DNA of 33,575 bases from Anaerolineales bacterium (GTDB taxonomy: Bacteria > Chloroflexota > Anaerolineae > Anaerolineales > Villigracilaceae), in the NCBI GenBank assembly GCA_020060235.1, contig JAGVAO010000210.1:1-33575 (forward strand), in the 5' to 3' direction. The first letter of the stretch is position 1; every line of letters starts with the position of its first letter. Shown in pieces: positions 5,345-13,820 of the stretch. The translations under genes and the position numbers were made by a program. The notes under the pieces are model-generated. The model did no database searches, was not told the origin of the DNA, and saw only the letters and a list, made by a program, of their open reading frames with translations.

Positions 5345-5515
5345 CGGCATACAATCAGGCCCACGTAACTGAATAGCGAACAAATGCGGCGAAGCCGGTG
5401 TGAGTCCGGCGCTGTCGCGCAACTGTAAGTTCTGCAAAGAACGAGCCAGGTCGCCCGCATTGTTCGTCCTGCGTACCACTCTCTCGCGAAAGGAGGTGGG
5501 AACGGCGATTTTTAC
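5345..5515 (+). ncRNA. Cobalamin riboswitch
   Basis: gaaGCCGGTGtgAGTCCGGCGCTGtcGCGCAACTGTAA followed by GAGCCAGGTCG (B12-box-like core), closing stem GAACAAATGCGG/CCGCATTGTTC, position directly upstream of a BtuF-like gene. Boundaries approximate. Confidence 0.88.
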
Positions 5516-6623: not shown

Positions 6624-7616
6624 ATGCGCCCTTACCTCCTGACCCTCCTCGCCCTGGCCCTGGCCTTGCTCCTGAGCATTGTCATCGGCTCGGTATTCAT
6701 CCCGCCCGCTGAACTGTGGGCGGCGCTTTCGGGTTCGGGCGCGAACGGTACCTTTAACACCATCCTGTGGAACATCCGCCTGCCGCGCACCGCGCTGATT
6801 TTGCTGGTCGGGGCGGCGCTTTCGGGTAGCGGCGCGGCCTACCAGGGTTTGTTCCGTAATCCGCTGGCCGACCCGTACTTAATCGGTGTCGCTTCCGGGG
6901 CCGGGCTGGGCGCGGTGCTGGCGATGTCGGTCCAGTGGCCCTACACCCTGGCCGGGCTGATGGCTGTCCCGCTGGCGGCGTTTGCGGCGGGGCTGTTGAC
7001 CGTCCTGCTGGTTTATAGTTTCGCCCGCGTTGGCGGCAGCGTGCCGACCACCACGCTCATCCTGGCCGGGGTGGCGCTGTCCTCCTTTGCCACGGCCCTG
7101 ACCTCCTTCCTGATGCTGCGCTCCAGCGGCGAACTGCGCCGCGCCCTCGGTTGGCTGTTGGGCGGCGTCAGCCAGGGCGGCTGGGACGCCATCCTGGCCC
7201 TGATTCCCTTCCTGGCAATCGGCCTGCCCGCGCTGATTTTGAGCGGACACGCCCTCAACCTGCTCCAATTTGGGGACGAACAGGCCGCCCAACTCGGCCT
7301 CGATACGCGCCGCGCCAAACTGGTCATCATCGTGGCCGCCTCCCTCACCACCGCGGCGGCGGTCGCTTTTGCGGGCATCATCGGTTTTGTTGGCCTCATC
7401 ATCCCGCACGTTATGCGCTTCTGGTGGGGAGCCGACTATCGCCGTCTCATTCCGCTCAGCATCTTCGGCGGCGGGGCGGCCCTTTTGCTGGCCGACGTGC
7501 TGGCGCGGGTTGTCATCGCCCCGCAGGAACTTCCGCTCGGCGTTGTCACCGCGCTGGCAGGCGCGCCCTTCTTTCTGTGGATTTTGCGCCGCGCCAAAAT
7601 GGGAGGTAACTGGTAA
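6624..7616 (+). CDS. btuC: FecCD-family ABC transporter permease (cobalamin importer)
   Basis: LPRTALILLVGAALSGSGAAYQGLFRNPLADPYLIGVASGAGLGAVLA; GIIGFVGLIIPHVMRF. The ATG at 6624 is more likely than 6573, whose extra 17 codons are the hairpin repeat. Confidence 0.9.
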   Translation: MRPYLLTLLALALALLLSIVIGSVFIPPAELWAALSGSGANGTFNTILWNIRLPRTALILLVGAALSGSGAAYQGLFRNPLADPYLIGVASGAGLGAVLAMSVQWPYTLAGLMAVPLAAFAAGLLTVLLVYSFARVGGSVPTTTLILAGVALSSFATALTSFLMLRSSGELRRALGWLLGGVSQGGWDAILALIPFLAIGLPALILSGHALNLLQFGDEQAAQLGLDTRRAKLVIIVAASLTTAAAVAFAGIIGFVGLIIPHVMRFWWGADYRRLIPLSIFGGGAALLLADVLARVVIAPQELPLGVVTALAGAPFFLWILRRAKMGGNW

Positions 7617-8383
7617 TGTTAAAAGCCGAAAACCTGCTGGTCGCCTATCACGGGCGGCCCGTGCTCAAAAACATCAGTTTGGGGATGGAAAAAGGGGAGA
7701 TTCTTGCGTTGGTCGGGCCGAACGGCTCCGGCAAATCGACCCTGATTCGCGCCCTGAGCGGAATCCTGCCCGTCTCGCGCGGGACGATAAGCCTGTCTGG
7801 CCGTTTAATCAGCGCATTTGGCCCCGCCGAACGCGCCCGCCAAATTGCGGTTGTCCCGCAGGGAGTCCAGATGCCCCCGGCGTTTACCGCGCTCGAAACA
7901 GTGTTGTTTGGCCGCACCCCCTACCTGAACTTCCTCGGCCAACTCTCGGCTGAAGACGAGCGCATCGCCCGCGACTCGCTCGAACAGGTTGATGCCCTGT
8001 CCCTGGCCGGACGCCTGATGGGTGAACTCTCCGGCGGCGAACAGCAGCGCGTCCTGCTGGCGCGCGCCCTGGCGCAGTGCAGCCCCATCCTGCTGCTCGA
8101 CGAACCGACCAGCCACCTCGATTTGCAGCACCAGATGGCCCTGATGGAACTGGTCTATAAACTGGCCCGCGAGTGCGAGTTGACAGTGCTGGTGGCCCTG
8201 CACGACCTGAACCTGGCCGCGCGCTACGCCGACCGCATCGCCCTGCTCGAAAATGGCGAACTGAAAGCCATTGGCGCGCCCGCCGACATCCTGACCGCGG
8301 AGATGCTTTCGCAGGTCTATGGCTGGCCCGTGCAGGTTGTCAAACACCCCTTTCAGGATGCGCCGCTGGTGCTTCCAGGGTAA
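7616..8383 (+). CDS. btuD: ABC transporter ATP-binding protein (cobalamin importer)
   Basis: Walker A GPNGSGKST, signature LSGGEQQRVLLARALAQ, Walker B ILLLDEPTSHLD. Confidence 0.92.
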   Translation: MLKAENLLVAYHGRPVLKNISLGMEKGEILALVGPNGSGKSTLIRALSGILPVSRGTISLSGRLISAFGPAERARQIAVVPQGVQMPPAFTALETVLFGRTPYLNFLGQLSAEDERIARDSLEQVDALSLAGRLMGELSGGEQQRVLLARALAQCSPILLLDEPTSHLDLQHQMALMELVYKLARECELTVLVALHDLNLAARYADRIALLENGELKAIGAPADILTAEMLSQVYGWPVQVVKHPFQDAPLVLPG

Positions 8384-8398
8384 ACGATTCCCAACATT

Positions 8399-9619
8399 CT
8401 AAATTCCAAACAAAGCGCGCGCGGTGGCGGCATACTCTGGGGCCTCGGCGCGCAACTGACGGGTGGGCTTGTCGAGCAGCTTTTTGACCAGCGCCTGGGT
8501 CAGGGCTTCGATGTGTTCGCGTTCCGCCTCGCCCAGGCCCGGAAGGCGGCGCAGGGTCTTTTCCAGTTCGCTGCGGCGGATGGCCTCCGCCTGCCGGCGC
8601 ATGTCGCTAATCAGCGGCAGTACATCCAGCGCGCCGAAGTAATCCATAAATTTGGCAATCTCTTCGGCCAGGATGGCCTCGACGCGCGGGACTTCGGCAA
8701 TCCGCCCGGCCAGCGATTTCTCAAGGCTTGCGTTCAGGACATCCAAATCGTGCAAACGCACATGGGGGATTTGGGCCGCCTGCGGGTCAATATTACGCGG
8801 AACGGCAATATCAATCAACACCAGCGGGCGTCCAGGCCGCCGGGACATGGCAGCGGCCACCATTTCCGCATCCAGCACGGCTTGCGGCGCGGCTGTCGAG
8901 GCTATCAAAATATCGGCGTCGGCCAGGGCGGCGGGCAGGCCGCCCAATCCGCCTGCCTGTGCGTTCCAGCGCGCGGCCAGGGCCTGGGCGCGTTCTGCGG
9001 AGCGGTTGATAACTGTCAACCGTTGTGCGCCGCGTTTGCGCAGGGCTTCGACCGCCAGTTCAGCCGTTTCCCCCGCGCCGAGGATGACAACCTGCGCCGA
9101 ACGGATGTCCTGTACCGAGCGTTGGCACAGCGCGGCGGCCAGCGAGGAAACCGAAGCCGGGTTGCGGCTGATGGCTGTTTCGGCGCGGACTCGTTTGCCC
9201 GCATGGATGGCGTCCTGGAACAGGCGCGAGAGCAGCGGCCCGACCGTGTTTTGGCTGCGCGCCTTCTCGAGCGCGCGGGTCACTTGCCCCAAAATCTGCG
9301 CTTCTCCCAGCACCAGCGATTCCAGCCCGGCGGCGACCCGGAACAAATGCGCGATGGCTGCCTCGTCGCAGGCGCAATGTAAATGCCGGCGGAACTCATC
9401 CAGCGGTACGCCGCTTATCGCAGCCAGAAAGGTTTGCAGGTCGGCAAACGACCCCTCACCAGAAACGGCATAGATTTCAGTCCGGTTGCAGGTCGAGAGC
9501 AGCACGGCTTCTTGCAGGTTGCTTGGTGGGGCGCAAGTTTCGGCTGCTCCAAGCGCCAGCCTTTCGCGCAGGCGGATGGGGGCGGTGGTATGGTTGATTC
9601 CAATCGACAGGATGTGCAT
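8399..9619 (-). CDS. hemA: Glutamyl-tRNA reductase
   Basis: MHILSIGINHTTAPIRLRERLAL; STCNRTEIYAV active-site Cys motif; GLESLVLGEAQILGQV. Confidence 0.95.
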   Translation of the reverse strand: MHILSIGINHTTAPIRLRERLALGAAETCAPPSNLQEAVLLSTCNRTEIYAVSGEGSFADLQTFLAAISGVPLDEFRRHLHCACDEAAIAHLFRVAAGLESLVLGEAQILGQVTRALEKARSQNTVGPLLSRLFQDAIHAGKRVRAETAISRNPASVSSLAAALCQRSVQDIRSAQVVILGAGETAELAVEALRKRGAQRLTVINRSAERAQALAARWNAQAGGLGGLPAALADADILIASTAAPQAVLDAEMVAAAMSRRPGRPLVLIDIAVPRNIDPQAAQIPHVRLHDLDVLNASLEKSLAGRIAEVPRVEAILAEEIAKFMDYFGALDVLPLISDMRRQAEAIRRSELEKTLRRLPGLGEAEREHIEALTQALVKKLLDKPTRQLRAEAPEYAATARALFGI

Positions 9620-9621
9620 GG

Positions 9622-10287
9622 CTAAACGTCGGCAGGTTGGAAGTGGAAGCCGACAATGTCAGAGATGATTTGTAGGGCGGTTTCCTCGCGGCCGGCTTCG
9701 ATGTGGGTCAAAACGTCCGAATCGACAATCTGATACCACAGTTGTTTGCGGGTTTCAAAGTCGGGAATGCGCTCGGCCAGGGGCTGGCGCAACTTCCCTG
9801 CCAGGGACAGGAAGCGGGCATGGTGCGCCCCAACCTGCTGCTGGAACTGCTCCCGCAGGCGTACGGCCAGGGCCGGGGCTTTACCCGCCGTCGAAATGGC
9901 AATCGTCAGGTCGCCCTGGCGCGCAATCGACGGGGCGATAAAGTTGCAATGCGGGGTGTCGTCCACCACGTTGACCAGTTGGCGGTTGGCGTTGGCTTCC
10001 TCCCAGACCTGGCGGTTGATTTCGGGCTGGTTGGTGGCGCAAATGGCGAGGAACGCGCCGCGCAGGTCGCCGGGCCGGTAGGCGCGCTGGATATACGTTA
10101 CCCGTCCGGCGCGGACGTGTTCGCCCAGCCTGTCGGTCAGGTCGGGCGAGATGAGCGTAACCCGCGCCTGCGATTCGAGCAAACTCTCGACCTTGCCCTC
10201 GGCGATTTTCCCGCCGCCTATCACCACGCAGGGCTGGTCTTTGAGTTGTAAAAAGACCGGGTAGTAGGTTTCGGGTTCAGATTTCAT
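9622..10287 (-). CDS. Precorrin-2 dehydrogenase / sirohydrochlorin ferrochelatase-type (CysG N-terminal/Met8-like)
   Basis: YYPVFLQLKDQPCVVIGGGKIAEGKVESLLESQARVTLISPDL; NRQVWEEANANRQLVNVVDDTPHCNFIAPS. Confidence 0.92.
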   Translation of the reverse strand: MKSEPETYYPVFLQLKDQPCVVIGGGKIAEGKVESLLESQARVTLISPDLTDRLGEHVRAGRVTYIQRAYRPGDLRGAFLAICATNQPEINRQVWEEANANRQLVNVVDDTPHCNFIAPSIARQGDLTIAISTAGKAPALAVRLREQFQQQVGAHHARFLSLAGKLRQPLAERIPDFETRKQLWYQIVDSDVLTHIEAGREETALQIISDIVGFHFQPADV

Positions 10288-11041
10288 AATCGGGTTTCAG
10301 GTGAATGCCGCACTCGGTTTTTTTCTGCCCACTCCAGCGTCCGGCGCGGGGGTCTTCGCCGGGTTTGACCGCCCGGGTGCAGGGCCAGCAGCCGATGCTG
10401 GGGAAGCCCTTATCGTGCAGGGGGTTGTAGGGCAGGTTGTGGGTGTGGATGTAGTCCCAAACCTGCTGGCTGGTCCAGGCGGCCAGGGGGTTGAGTTTGA
10501 CCATTTTGTTGGTCGTATCCCACTCGACCAGCCCGGCGTTGGCGCGGAAGATGGTCTGGTCGCGGCGGATGCCGGTAATCCAGGCGCGGTAGCCTCCCAG
10601 GTATTCGCGCTGCGGCGTGACTTTGCGCAGGTAGCAGCACGAATCGGGGTCGCTTTGCCACAGGGCTTCGCCATATTTTTTGGTCTGCTCCTCCAGCGAA
10701 AGGCCGGTCGCAACGCGTTCCAGGCGCACGCCCAGGCGGCGCACCAGTTCGTCGCGCAGGGCATAGGTTTCGGGAAAGAGCAGGGCGGTATCGAGGTAAA
10801 AAATCCTGGTTTCGGGACGAATTTCGGCAATCATGTGCATCAACGCGACGCCTTCCGGGCCAAAACCGGTCGCTTGGACGATGTCGGGGCCGAAGTGTTC
10901 GAATCCCCAGCGCAGTACCAGTTGCGGGCTGCTGCCTTCGAGTTGCTGGTTGATGTGTTTCAGTTCGCTGACCGTCCACTGGGTCAAATCGTAAAGGGTA
11001 TAGGGGTCTTGTTGGGTCAAGAAGTGGGAAGACATGGGCAA
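10277..11041 (-). CDS. cysH: Phosphoadenylyl-/adenylyl-sulfate reductase (Fe-S type)
   Basis: CCYLRKV, CWPCTR and C-terminal ECGIHL motifs; WITGIRRDQT. Confidence 0.93.
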   Translation of the reverse strand: MPMSSHFLTQQDPYTLYDLTQWTVSELKHINQQLEGSSPQLVLRWGFEHFGPDIVQATGFGPEGVALMHMIAEIRPETRIFYLDTALLFPETYALRDELVRRLGVRLERVATGLSLEEQTKKYGEALWQSDPDSCCYLRKVTPQREYLGGYRAWITGIRRDQTIFRANAGLVEWDTTNKMVKLNPLAAWTSQQVWDYIHTHNLPYNPLHDKGFPSIGCWPCTRAVKPGEDPRAGRWSGQKKTECGIHLKPDYEI

Positions 11042-11058: not shown

Positions 11059-11826
11059 TTATCCGCCTGCGAAGGCGGGCAGTTTTTCCTGAAACCAGGC
11101 GATTTCCTGGCGCATTCGCACCACCTCGCCAACCACAAGGATGGCGGGCGGCTGGATGTGCGCGGTTTTGGCGGCGATGTCTTCGAGCAGGCCTTCGACG
11201 ACGACCTGTTCAGTGGTTGTGCCTTGCTGGATGACGGCCACCGATACGCGACCTGACATGCCGTTGGCGAGCAGGCGGTTGCAGATTTCGGGCAGGTGCG
11301 CCACGCCCATCAGGAAGACGAGCGTTCCCAGCCGGGGCAGGGCCGCCCAGTCGATGCCTGATTCTGGCCCGCAGGTGTGCCCGGCGATGACGGTAAACGC
11401 GGTCGTCACCCCGCGTTGGGTGACGGGAATCCCGGCATAGGCGGGGACAGCGATTGCGCTGCTGACGCCGGGAATGACCTCGAAGGGAATCCCCGCCTCG
11501 GACAGGGCCTGGCATTCTTCGCCGCCGCGCCCGAAGACGAAGGGGTCGCCGCCCTTTAACCGGGCGACGCGCAGCCCCTGGCGGGCTTTTTCGACCAGCA
11601 GGACGTTGATGCATTCCTGCGCGAGGCGGTGACGGGATGGGGCTTTGCCCACGTCGATGGCCTCGGCCAGGGGGTGAATTTCATCCAGCAGGGCCGGGGC
11701 GGCGAGACGGTCGTACAGCACCACGTCCGCCTGGCGCAGGCGTTTCAGCCCTTTGACGGTGATAAGTTCCGGGTCGCCTGGCCCGGCGCCGATAATGGAA
11801 ACAAGCCCTGGGGTTGTCGCGCTCAT
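11059..11826 (-). CDS. cobA: Uroporphyrinogen-III C-methyltransferase
   Basis: LVSIIGAGPGDPELITVKGLKRLRQADVVLYDRL; ARLKGGDPFVFGRGGEE; GVSSAIAVPAYAGIPVTQRG. ATG at 11826 preferred. Confidence 0.95.
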   Translation of the reverse strand: MSATTPGLVSIIGAGPGDPELITVKGLKRLRQADVVLYDRLAAPALLDEIHPLAEAIDVGKAPSRHRLAQECINVLLVEKARQGLRVARLKGGDPFVFGRGGEECQALSEAGIPFEVIPGVSSAIAVPAYAGIPVTQRGVTTAFTVIAGHTCGPESGIDWAALPRLGTLVFLMGVAHLPEICNRLLANGMSGRVSVAVIQQGTTTEQVVVEGLLEDIAAKTAHIQPPAILVVGEVVRMRQEIAWFQEKLPAFAGG

Positions 11827-11836
11827 CGGCTTGCTC

Positions 11837-13501
11837 CTAAAGCGGCTGCAAGGCTTGCAGTTGGTCGAAGCCCACGCGCACGCAGAAATCCCCGAAAGTC
11901 TCATCCGGCTGACGGGTTTCTTTGAAGTGGGCCAGCAGCGGCAGCAGGGTGGGGATGATTTCCTGGAACGGCACAAGGTCTTTGTAGAATTTGTTCAGGC
12001 GCGTGCCGTCGATGCGCCCGCCGAGGAAGATGGTGTACTTGTTGAGCGAGCGTCCCACCAGGCCGATGTCGGCCACGTAGGGGCGGGCGCAGCCGTTGGG
12101 GCAGCCGGTCATGCGCACGGTGATGGGTTCGTCTTGCAGGCCCAGGCGTTTGAGTTCTTCTTCCAGTTGGTCTACCAGACCCGGCAGGGCGCGTTCGCCT
12201 TCGGTAATGGCCAGGCTGCAGGTCGGCAGGGCCACGCAGGCGATGGAATGTAACTGCACCAGTGAGAGTTCGCGGGGCAGGCGCACGCCGTGGGCATGCA
12301 AAATGGTTTCGATGGGGATTTGGGCCTCGGGCGGCAGGTTGGTGATGAGCAGGTCCTGGCTGGCGGTGATGGCGAAGCGCGGCTGGAATTTGCGCGCGAT
12401 TTCGGCCAGGGCGGTTTTCAGTTTCATGCTTTCGGTGTCCTGGATGCGCCCGTTTTCGATGGACAGGCCGAAGAACCAGCGTCCGTCGCCCTGGTTATGC
12501 CAGCCGAGGTGCAGGTGCGGCTCGAAGGGCGGCAGCGGGGCGCTGGGGGCCAGTTGGTAACCCAGGCGGGCTTCGACCTCGCTGCGGAAGCGGTCGATGC
12601 CCCAGTCGTTAATCAGGTACTTGATGCGCGAGTGTTTGCGGTTGGCGCGGTCACCGTTGTCGCGGTAGACGGCGATGACCTGCTCGGCCACCGGCAGCAG
12701 TTGCTCGGGTTCGACAAAGCCGAGCGGGTCGGAAAGGCGCGGGAAGGTCTCCGGCTGGGTGTGGTTCATGCCCAGCCCGCCGCCGACCAGGATGTTGAAT
12801 CCCTTCAGGGCTTCGCCTTCCAGGATGGCGACAATCCCCAGGTCGTTGGTGAAAATGTCGAGGCAGTTATCGCCGGGGTAGGCCAGCGCGATTTTGAACT
12901 TGCGCGGCAGGTAGGTTTTGCCGTAGAACGGTTCGATTTCTTCTGCCGGCTCAGACAGGTCGAGTTTTTCGCCATCGAGCCAGATTTCGGCGTAGGCCTT
13001 GCCGCGTGAGATGAAGTGTTCCGAAATCTGGCGGGCATATTCGGTCACCTGGGCGTGGGCGCGGCTTTTGAAGGGAGCCGGGCAGGCAGTGACGTTGCGC
13101 ACCACGTCGCCGCAGGCGCCCTGGCTGGTTATCAGGGCCTTGTGAATTTCCTGCAACATGGATTTGACCTCGCCTTTGACCAGCCCGTGAAATTGGATGG
13201 TCTCGCGGGTGGTCAGGCGGATGGTGTTGTTGGCGTAGCGGGTTGCCAGGTCGTCGAGTACCAGGTATTGCTCGGCGCTGATTTGCCCGGCGGGGATGCG
13301 CCAGCGAATCATAATGGAATGCACTTTTTGGCCGCGAATGTCACGGTCGTGCTGCTGATACATGCCGTGCGCTTTCAGAACAACGGCGTTGTCTTCAGAG
13401 AAAGCCGGGGTGCCTTGTTGCAGTTCCTCTTCCAGGGTTCCGCGCAGGTAACGGCTGTTTTCTTTAATATGTTCGACTTTGCTTAATTTTGGGGCGTCCA
13501 T
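11837..13501 (-). CDS. Sulfite reductase (ferredoxin-type; nitrite/sulfite reductase family)
   Basis: Siroheme/4Fe-4S motifs CVALPTC and TGCPNGCARPYVADIGLVG; IPAGQISAEQY; DVVRNVTACP. ATG at 13501 has a good SD (aaggag, 8 nt spacing); the track's 13564 start would run through the T2 terminator. Confidence 0.92.
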   Translation of the reverse strand: MDAPKLSKVEHIKENSRYLRGTLEEELQQGTPAFSEDNAVVLKAHGMYQQHDRDIRGQKVHSIMIRWRIPAGQISAEQYLVLDDLATRYANNTIRLTTRETIQFHGLVKGEVKSMLQEIHKALITSQGACGDVVRNVTACPAPFKSRAHAQVTEYARQISEHFISRGKAYAEIWLDGEKLDLSEPAEEIEPFYGKTYLPRKFKIALAYPGDNCLDIFTNDLGIVAILEGEALKGFNILVGGGLGMNHTQPETFPRLSDPLGFVEPEQLLPVAEQVIAVYRDNGDRANRKHSRIKYLINDWGIDRFRSEVEARLGYQLAPSAPLPPFEPHLHLGWHNQGDGRWFFGLSIENGRIQDTESMKLKTALAEIARKFQPRFAITASQDLLITNLPPEAQIPIETILHAHGVRLPRELSLVQLHSIACVALPTCSLAITEGERALPGLVDQLEEELKRLGLQDEPITVRMTGCPNGCARPYVADIGLVGRSLNKYTIFLGGRIDGTRLNKFYKDLVPFQEIIPTLLPLLAHFKETRQPDETFGDFCVRVGFDQLQALQPL

Positions 13502-13539
13502 TTTCTCTTCTCCTTCTCTTCTCCATGGGTGAACGATTA

Positions 13540-13573
13540 CAAAAAATAAAAAAACCGGGGTCATTCCCGGTTT
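13540..13573 (-). terminator. Intrinsic terminator T2 in the sulfite reductase leader
   Basis: Minus strand: AAACCGGG aatgac CCCGGTTT followed by ttttattttttg. Confidence 0.8.
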
Positions 13574-13582
13574 GTAATCAAT

Positions 13583-13634
13583 AAAAAAACCGGCGAATGC
13601 ACGTCAGGGGCCTCCTGGGGATGTGCATCACCGA
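13583..13634 (-). terminator. Intrinsic terminator T1 in the sulfite reductase leader
   Basis: Minus strand: tCGGTGATGCAC ... GTGCATtCGCCGG followed by TTTTTTT. Perfect inner GATGCAC-type stem, one bulged T and a G-U pair in the outer stem. Confidence 0.75.
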
Positions 13635-13660
13635 TTTGCGGGCCTGTTTTTGGCCTGTGC

Positions 13661-13780
13661 TCAGGTGCGGGTTGCGGCAATCAGCCGCTCATCTCCCTGG
13701 AGACGCGGAAAACACATACATGTACAGGAACACATACACGCGCAGGCTGCCAGCGGGGAGAGTGATTTGTTGGTCTTCAT
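13661..13780 (-). CDS. Cysteine-rich leader peptide MKTNKSLSPLAACACMCSCTCMCFPRLQGDERLIAATRT (39 aa)
   Basis: Direct translation: ATG at 13780, TGA at 13663-13661; Cys at residues 13, 15, 17, 19, 21, 23. Preceded by a near-consensus promoter and followed by T1/T2 and sulfite reductase. Not in the supplied ORF track. Confidence 0.8.
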   Translation of the reverse strand: MKTNKSLSPLAACACMCSCTCMCFPRLQGDERLIAATRT

Positions 13781-13792
13781 AATTAACGACTG

Positions 13793-13820
13793 ATTTTATC
13801 GTCATTATGATATTTGTCAA
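13793..13820 (-). promoter_or_regulatory. Sigma70-like promoter for the cysteine leader / sulfite reductase operon
   Basis: Minus strand TTGACA (13820-13815), 16-nt spacer, TAAAAT (13798-13793); leader ATG only 12 nt past the -10 box. Confidence 0.75.

Follow-up and report, generated by a model that had tools for sequence, protein, structure and literature searches.

The sulfite reductase operon and its leader region

The window, a stretch of 33,575 nucleotides of DNA from an Anaerolineales bacterium, carries an operon of five genes, all on the minus strand and either overlapping or separated by short gaps. Their identities were assigned from NCBIfam and Pfam profiles:

11837..13501, minus strand: assimilatory sulfite reductase hemoprotein, operon gene 1 (PRK13504, 742 bits against a cut-off of 457; PF01077 and PF03460)
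11059..11904, minus strand: uroporphyrinogen-III C-methyltransferase (SUMT) of the siroheme branch (TIGR01469, 291 bits)
10277..11035, minus strand: CysH, (phospho)adenylyl-sulfate reductase (PRK02090, 265 bits; PF01507)
9622..10287, minus strand: precorrin-2 dehydrogenase/ferrochelatase of the CysG N-terminal type (TIGR01470, 168 bits)
8399..9619, minus strand: HemA, glutamyl-tRNA reductase, last operon gene (TIGR01035, 389 bits)

The first genes of the operon yield sulfide, which is the sulfur donor for cysteine, and siroheme is the cofactor of the sulfite reductase. The region ahead of the sulfite reductase contains the following elements, some of which are candidates proposed from pairing energies:

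13793..13820, minus strand: sigma-70-type promoter, TTGACA (13820..13815), 16 nt, TAAAAT (13798..13793), by direct reading
13661..13780, minus strand: Cys-rich leader peptide ORF with a TGA stop, by direct reading, with orthologues in two congeners (G089 and G091) and analogues in the class
13712..13744, minus strand: Cys codon block TGC-GCG-TGT-ATG-TGT-TCC-TGT-ACA-TGT-ATG-TGT (region 1), the proposed stall site
13690..13704, minus strand: candidate antiterminator 5' strand GTCTCCAGGGAGATG (region 2), pairing with 13623..13610 by duplex energy and fold
13610..13623, minus strand: candidate antiterminator 3' strand CATCCCCAGGAGGC (region 3), within the T1 5' arm and loop
13583..13637, minus strand: intrinsic terminator T1 (3:4), −22.8 kcal/mol, T tract 13589-13583
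13590..13602, minus strand: T1 3' arm GTGCATTCGCCGG (region 4), complementary to the T2 5' arm as well
13548..13573, minus strand: intrinsic terminator T2 (5:6) with T tract, its 5' arm being region 5
13510..13515, minus strand: Shine-Dalgarno sequence AAGGAG of the sulfite reductase, about 9 nt before its ATG (13501)

The promoter, the 39-codon ORF with six cysteines, T1, T2, the Shine-Dalgarno sequence and the start at 13501 had all been named in a preliminary description of this DNA, and each was found again on re-reading. Its statement that the genes behind make sulfide and siroheme agreed with the profile matches to sulfite reductase, SUMT, CysH and CysG-N. The leader ORF (13780..13661) encodes the peptide MKTNKSLSPLAACACMCSCTCMCFPRLQGDERLIAATRT, with cysteines at positions 13, 15, 17, 19, 21 and 23, the first encoded by TGC and the other five by TGT. 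Its ATG lies about 6 nt past the expected transcription start (around 13786, minus strand) and is not preceded by a Shine-Dalgarno sequence, which makes the leader nearly leaderless. The T1 stem spans 13637..13587 and the T2 hairpin 13573..13552, the latter with about −12 kcal/mol.

The six-fold Cys-x pattern matched once in the 3.99 Mb genome and its reversal twice, from which about 1e-4 matches would be expected by chance per 320 nt. Compared with dinucleotide-shuffled versions of the upstream region, the pattern reached p ~0.003, the resolution limit of that comparison. When all of the window was scanned for short ORFs with at least three Cys per nine codons followed by a terminator-like hairpin, the sulfite reductase leader was the sole match with a strong terminator, and two weak matches lay elsewhere.

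Distribution of Cys-rich leaders

Within its own family and order, the sulfite reductase is essentially limited to the genus of the window. Three of 400 genomes of the order carried it, and outside this genus it is nearly absent. This distribution suggests either horizontal gain or wide loss, and the operon may have travelled together with its leader as one unit. Among the four further genomes of the genus covered by the family search, two (G089 and G091) possess the sulfite reductase. Their leaders, MNSFTLPGLYLFTCLCTCMCSMCIWGDVRRLVMRHIRV and MNSFTLPSLYLIACLCTCMCSMCIWGDVRRLAMRHIRV, both ending in a stop codon, are preceded at the aligned place by promoters with the same spacing as in the window (TTGACG/TTGAAT-16-TATAAT) and followed by both terminators, with T1 conserved at −28 kcal/mol. 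The two leaders differ from each other in six codons, four of which change the residue, and in none of the Cys codons. The peptide has otherwise mostly diverged in these congeners, so that the Cys block and the RNA are what is conserved, and not the peptide. In G091 (contig C91, locus L004/L077) the sulfite reductase breaks off after codon 137 and runs into hemB-like sequence, which reflects either a deletion or a misassembly; leader and terminators are intact there.

Sulfite reductase loci were further drawn from the class, the phylum, two families of the class and GTDB contigs. A Cys-rich leader and a terminator preceded the sulfite reductase in genomes of the class Anaerolineae from six families (f1, f34, f52, f59, f60 and f70) and about 14 genera, and also in a groundwater Chloroflexi MAG. 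Examples are MTFCFCAACLMCCVCEIPQASCCPDARL, MTTFAMCCWMCKCYQIITHC and CCCMVCLCCLM. The arrangement of the cysteines varied (C-x-C-x, CCC, CCxCC, CCCCC), and nearly all leaders were followed by a GC-rich hairpin and a T tract. None of 36 sulfite reductase loci of other Chloroflexota classes, Planctomycetota and Pseudomonadota had at least four Cys per nine codons. Conservation of the Cys-rich frame in relatives had been proposed as a check in the preliminary description; carried out here, it came out in favor of the leader, with Cys codons and terminators kept in the two congeners and recurring in distant genera. Five loci of the class lacked a leader (L023, L032, L034-L036). Another coding stretch on the same strand lies close upstream of each, so the sulfite reductase appears not to be the first gene there. 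At locus L031 (G738), a leader containing ten or more Cys, ending in SSLCSCTCFCCTSFTCCTCCC and a stop codon, occupies −427..−218 before the sulfite reductase; a clear intrinsic terminator was not found behind this leader, and control there is perhaps Rho-dependent or translational. Searching the class for CC(x)CC with GGGGC-T4 behind it gave two matches in 386 genomes, about the chance level (control, one match), and pointed to no further target.

At nine loci in five genera (L026, L027, L028, L079, L030, L078, L082, L084 and L085) the sulfite reductase is preceded by two complete units in series, leader-terminator-leader-terminator, as in MLLQPCCLCCMMTTTTFRRRAM-stop-T-MYRTRCCCMMCCMGLSGMEMVRLSTPG-stop-T. 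The window itself has one leader and two terminators, not two full units. In the tree of the sulfite reductases, which covered 61 of them, absence of a leader needed only three changes and the serial units at least four. L024/L088 (G744) is a probable tenth serial locus. About 315-490 nt before its sulfite reductase, a large inverted repeat (GGCCAGCCAT..ATGGCTGGCC, CCCGCTATCT..AGATAGCGGG) encloses the CCC codons of the probable second leader. No T tract follows this repeat, and a different mechanism of the second stage is therefore possible.

The genome of the window carries a second Cys-rich leader (contig G000:C197, locus L102/L110). This CCCCC leader, MNQHKASFNVSTVENNMMCCCCCMLS with its stop codon, lies between a gene for an Rrf2-like regulator, recognised by its N-terminus, and cysK (482 bits to TIGR01139). 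It is followed by ATCGGCGA...GCCTCGCCGATTAGCAGTGCTACTACGGCGAGGTTTTTT, where CCTCGCCGAT can pair either upstream, forming a putative antiterminator ATCGGCGA/TCGCCGAT, or downstream, forming a terminator CCTCGCCG/CGGCGAGG-T6. The attenuation system of the window genome probably governs cysK too. The leader was found in none of the 29 other cysK loci among the 30 compared in the family, including that of the same-genus genome G088, where the Rrf2-cysK pair is present. Its confinement to the window genome points to recent gain or local retention. Before sat and cysE of the window genome no leaders were found.

Codon choice and RNA pairing

In each of 15 representative loci the leader had a higher fraction of TGT among its Cys codons than its own sulfite reductase gene (sign test, 3e-5). 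Pooled TGT:TGC counts were 114:27 in the leaders versus 41:103 in the sulfite reductases. Nine genes of the window together contain 38 TGC and four TGT, compared with one TGC and five TGT in its leader. An attenuator would be expected to use a rare codon where the ribosome stalls, but the lower G+C content of the leaders could contribute too. A second bias concerned methionine, whose enrichment had not been a criterion in selecting the leaders. Of the 164 residues no more than two positions away from a Cys, 31 were non-initiator Met, as against six of the 269 other residues (odds ratio 10, p=3e-9), and 17 of 21 leaders contributed to this enrichment. The enrichment may indicate a reading of both sulfur amino acids, or it may stem from TG-rich sequence or from internal starts.

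Antiterminators, which the preliminary description had not included, were searched for in a segment of each unit that runs from a ribosome stalling on the second Cys codon as far as the edge of one that has reached the stop codon. The pairing partner was the 5' arm and loop of the terminator, and dinucleotide shuffles served as the null. Terminators were chosen by hand, as a compact hairpin before the T tract, for unit 1 of L027/28/79, for L029, for unit 2 of L030 and for L033 and L038. In the window the duplex of the segment with the T1 arm reached −30.7 kcal/mol against a shuffled mean of −20.1 (p=0.003). Twelve of 20 representative units had p<0.05, which combines to 8e-13 by Fisher's method for units that are not fully independent; by the same shuffle test no significant antiterminator was obtained in L025, L029, L080, L081, L084 and L085. 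When arms and segments were swapped between units, the mean pairing energy weakened from −16.1 kcal/mol for own pairs to −10.6 (z=−8.3, permutation p ~5e-6). The paired strands vary between genera and the pairing is retained, as illustrated by CAGGCGGGGTT/AACCCCGCCTG in unit 1 of L078.

Antiterminator and terminator are mutually exclusive, since the 5' arm of the terminator is common to both. In most units a ribosome at the leader stop codon covers or touches the 5' strand of the antiterminator. In the genus of the window, however, such a ribosome leaves region 2 uncovered, about 25 nt behind, and a local hairpin at region 2 may take over the role of this coverage. After transcription of the whole terminator, folding at equilibrium favors it in nearly all units, so antitermination would have to be kinetic.

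The preliminary description had treated T1 and T2 as tandem terminators. As terminators they stand; that they are merely redundant looks unlikely, because the 3' arm of T1 (CATTC-x-CCGG) is complementary to the 5' arm of T2 (CCGGGAATG). This 4:5 duplex amounted to −16.3 in the window (p=0.019), and p was 0.0006 and 0.001 in the congeners; the three sequences of the genus are near-identical there, and the pairing shows almost no covariation. For a transcript that extends to the T2 loop and carries a stalled ribosome, the fold of minimum energy combined 2:3 and 4:5 in the window and in G089. In G091 the transcript cut at the same place folded into T1 and not into 2:3 and 4:5. The full-length equilibrium fold was T1 and T2 in all three. 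Judged by these complementarities, T1 and T2 look coupled.

A proposed cysteine-sensing attenuator and its alternatives

We propose, on comparative and thermodynamic grounds, that the element is very probably a transcription attenuator of the trp/his/leu type, mediated by the ribosome and sensing cysteine. The features of this type that can be read from a sequence were all found, namely leader codons, terminator, antiterminator and fitting downstream genes. The genes behind the leaders make the sensed amino acid, be it sulfite reductase, cysH and the siroheme genes or cysK. As the same design recurs across the class, a stalling ribosome is most likely used as the cysteine gauge. The near-leaderless leader peptide would be translated during transcription. 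When Cys-tRNA is scarce, the ribosome would stall at the block of UGU codons, and region 2 could pair with region 3, that is with the 5' arm and loop of T1, which would block T1. Region 4, thereby left free, would pair with region 5 in the 5' arm of T2 and block T2 as well, and the polymerase would read into the sulfite reductase, siroheme, cysH and hemA genes. With ample cysteine, the ribosome would pass region 2 to the stop codon, and T1 (3:4) and then T2 (5:6) would form and terminate transcription. Two attenuators in series, as in several relatives, would be expected to make a tighter gate. The preliminary description had likewise read the region as a cysteine attenuator; conservation, the antiterminator added here with its swap test and the TGT skew support this reading at the level of sequence. 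We refine it by placing the element within a system that spans the class and is often serial.

Cys leader peptides were predicted before the cys operons of Actinobacteria, mycobacteria included, without conserved terminators (Seliverstov 2005; PMC1262725). In mycobacteria these polycysteine leaderless uORFs, reportedly tested by Canestrari 2020 (doi 10.1111/mmi.14498, as cited in PMC9031893 and PMC13236596), are cysteine-responsive and described as translational attenuation. The likeness is evident, in a Cys-rich short ORF before sulfur assimilation genes and, in the window, in a nearly leaderless start. A Cys-stalled ribosome might accordingly open the downstream ribosome binding site, the hairpins being incidental. 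We consider this improbable for the Anaerolineae. A GC-rich hairpin with T tract stands behind nearly all leaders found, and the complementarity within the leader region targets the 5' arm of the terminator. The window combines strong terminators with stalled-ribosome folds that amount to a choice between terminator and antiterminator upstream of the ribosome binding site, unlike a system of translational control with no terminator. Evidence for common descent with the mycobacterial uORFs was not found.

Even less probable is a sensing of metal, sulfide or redox state through the cysteines of the nascent chain, or a function of the peptide as a small metal-binding protein. C-x-C patterns can bind metals, and copper-responsive Cys-containing nascent peptides exist. 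However, no residue pattern other than Cys and the neighboring Met is conserved, the choice of rare codons fits decoding speed and not peptide chemistry, and the downstream genes make sulfide for cysteine. Since T-tract hairpins occur commonly and a TG-rich tract gives Cys codons in one of its frames, one might also see here a fortuitous Cys-rich frame beside two terminators of the ordinary kind that belong to some upstream transcript, with no regulation. This explanation is already disfavored and has hardly any probability left, given the recurrence of the frame before sulfite reductase in about 14 genera and its absence from the 36 comparison loci, the TGT bias, the swap test and the second instance before cysK.

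For the cysteine attenuator, the classical counterparts are the trp, his and leu operons of E. coli, and such systems in Proteobacteria were reportedly surveyed by Vitreschak in 2004. The likeness extends to a leader peptide rich in the end product, a terminator, an exclusive antiterminator and a biosynthetic operon behind, and the leu leader too uses rare codons for its regulatory residue. The Anaerolineae differ in the residue, cysteine, in the phylum, Chloroflexota, and in that two full attenuators often stand in series; in the genus of the window, a single leader seems to govern two coupled terminators. From Salmonella mgtCBR, termed a singular example in 2012 (PMC3641672), a pair of serial leader ORFs is known, with an attenuator belonging to each. 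The mgtCBR ORFs, however, read different signals (ATP and proline), whereas the serial leaders of Anaerolineae, judging by their codons, would both read the same residue, and both of their units end in intrinsic terminators before biosynthetic genes. A joint reading of these observations is possible, if rather doubtful: a lineage-specific attenuation by sulfur amino acids in Anaerolineae would stack attenuators for the same residue, its TGT/ATG block would read Met as well as Cys, double units would have been gained or lost several times, and in the genus of the window a chain of 2:3/4:5 would oppose 3:4/5:6.

Naville and Gautheret 2010 stated that leader-peptide systems were known only from Proteobacteria, Actinobacteria and, as his leaders, Firmicutes (PMC2965389). 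The preliminary description knew of no such system in this lineage, and our searches of the open-access literature agreed, finding neither leader-peptide systems in Chloroflexi nor terminator-type cysteine attenuators. New are the lineage, the terminator mechanism for cysteine, the serial duplication and the Met enrichment beside Cys, with the serial stacking as the main surprise. A terminator-based cysteine attenuator across a class of Chloroflexota would carry this type of regulation into a further phylum and to a further amino acid. The natural pairs of single and serial attenuators offer a test of how stacking affects leakiness and the response curve, and the leaders provide a rule for locating cysteine regulons in uncultured bacteria. 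The presence of hemA in the operon would tie siroheme and heme supply to cysteine status.

The T-box riboswitches of cysteine genes in Firmicutes also sense tRNA charging and control termination. The Anaerolineae would differ from them in using a translated leader; searches at the Rfam gathering threshold in the window and ten related loci gave no known riboswitch or T-box at the leaders. Elsewhere in the window, at 5363..5507 on the plus strand, an AdoCbl (cobalamin) riboswitch scored barely above the Rfam gathering score, upstream of a region with an iron/cobalamin-type ABC transporter ATPase (7616..8383).
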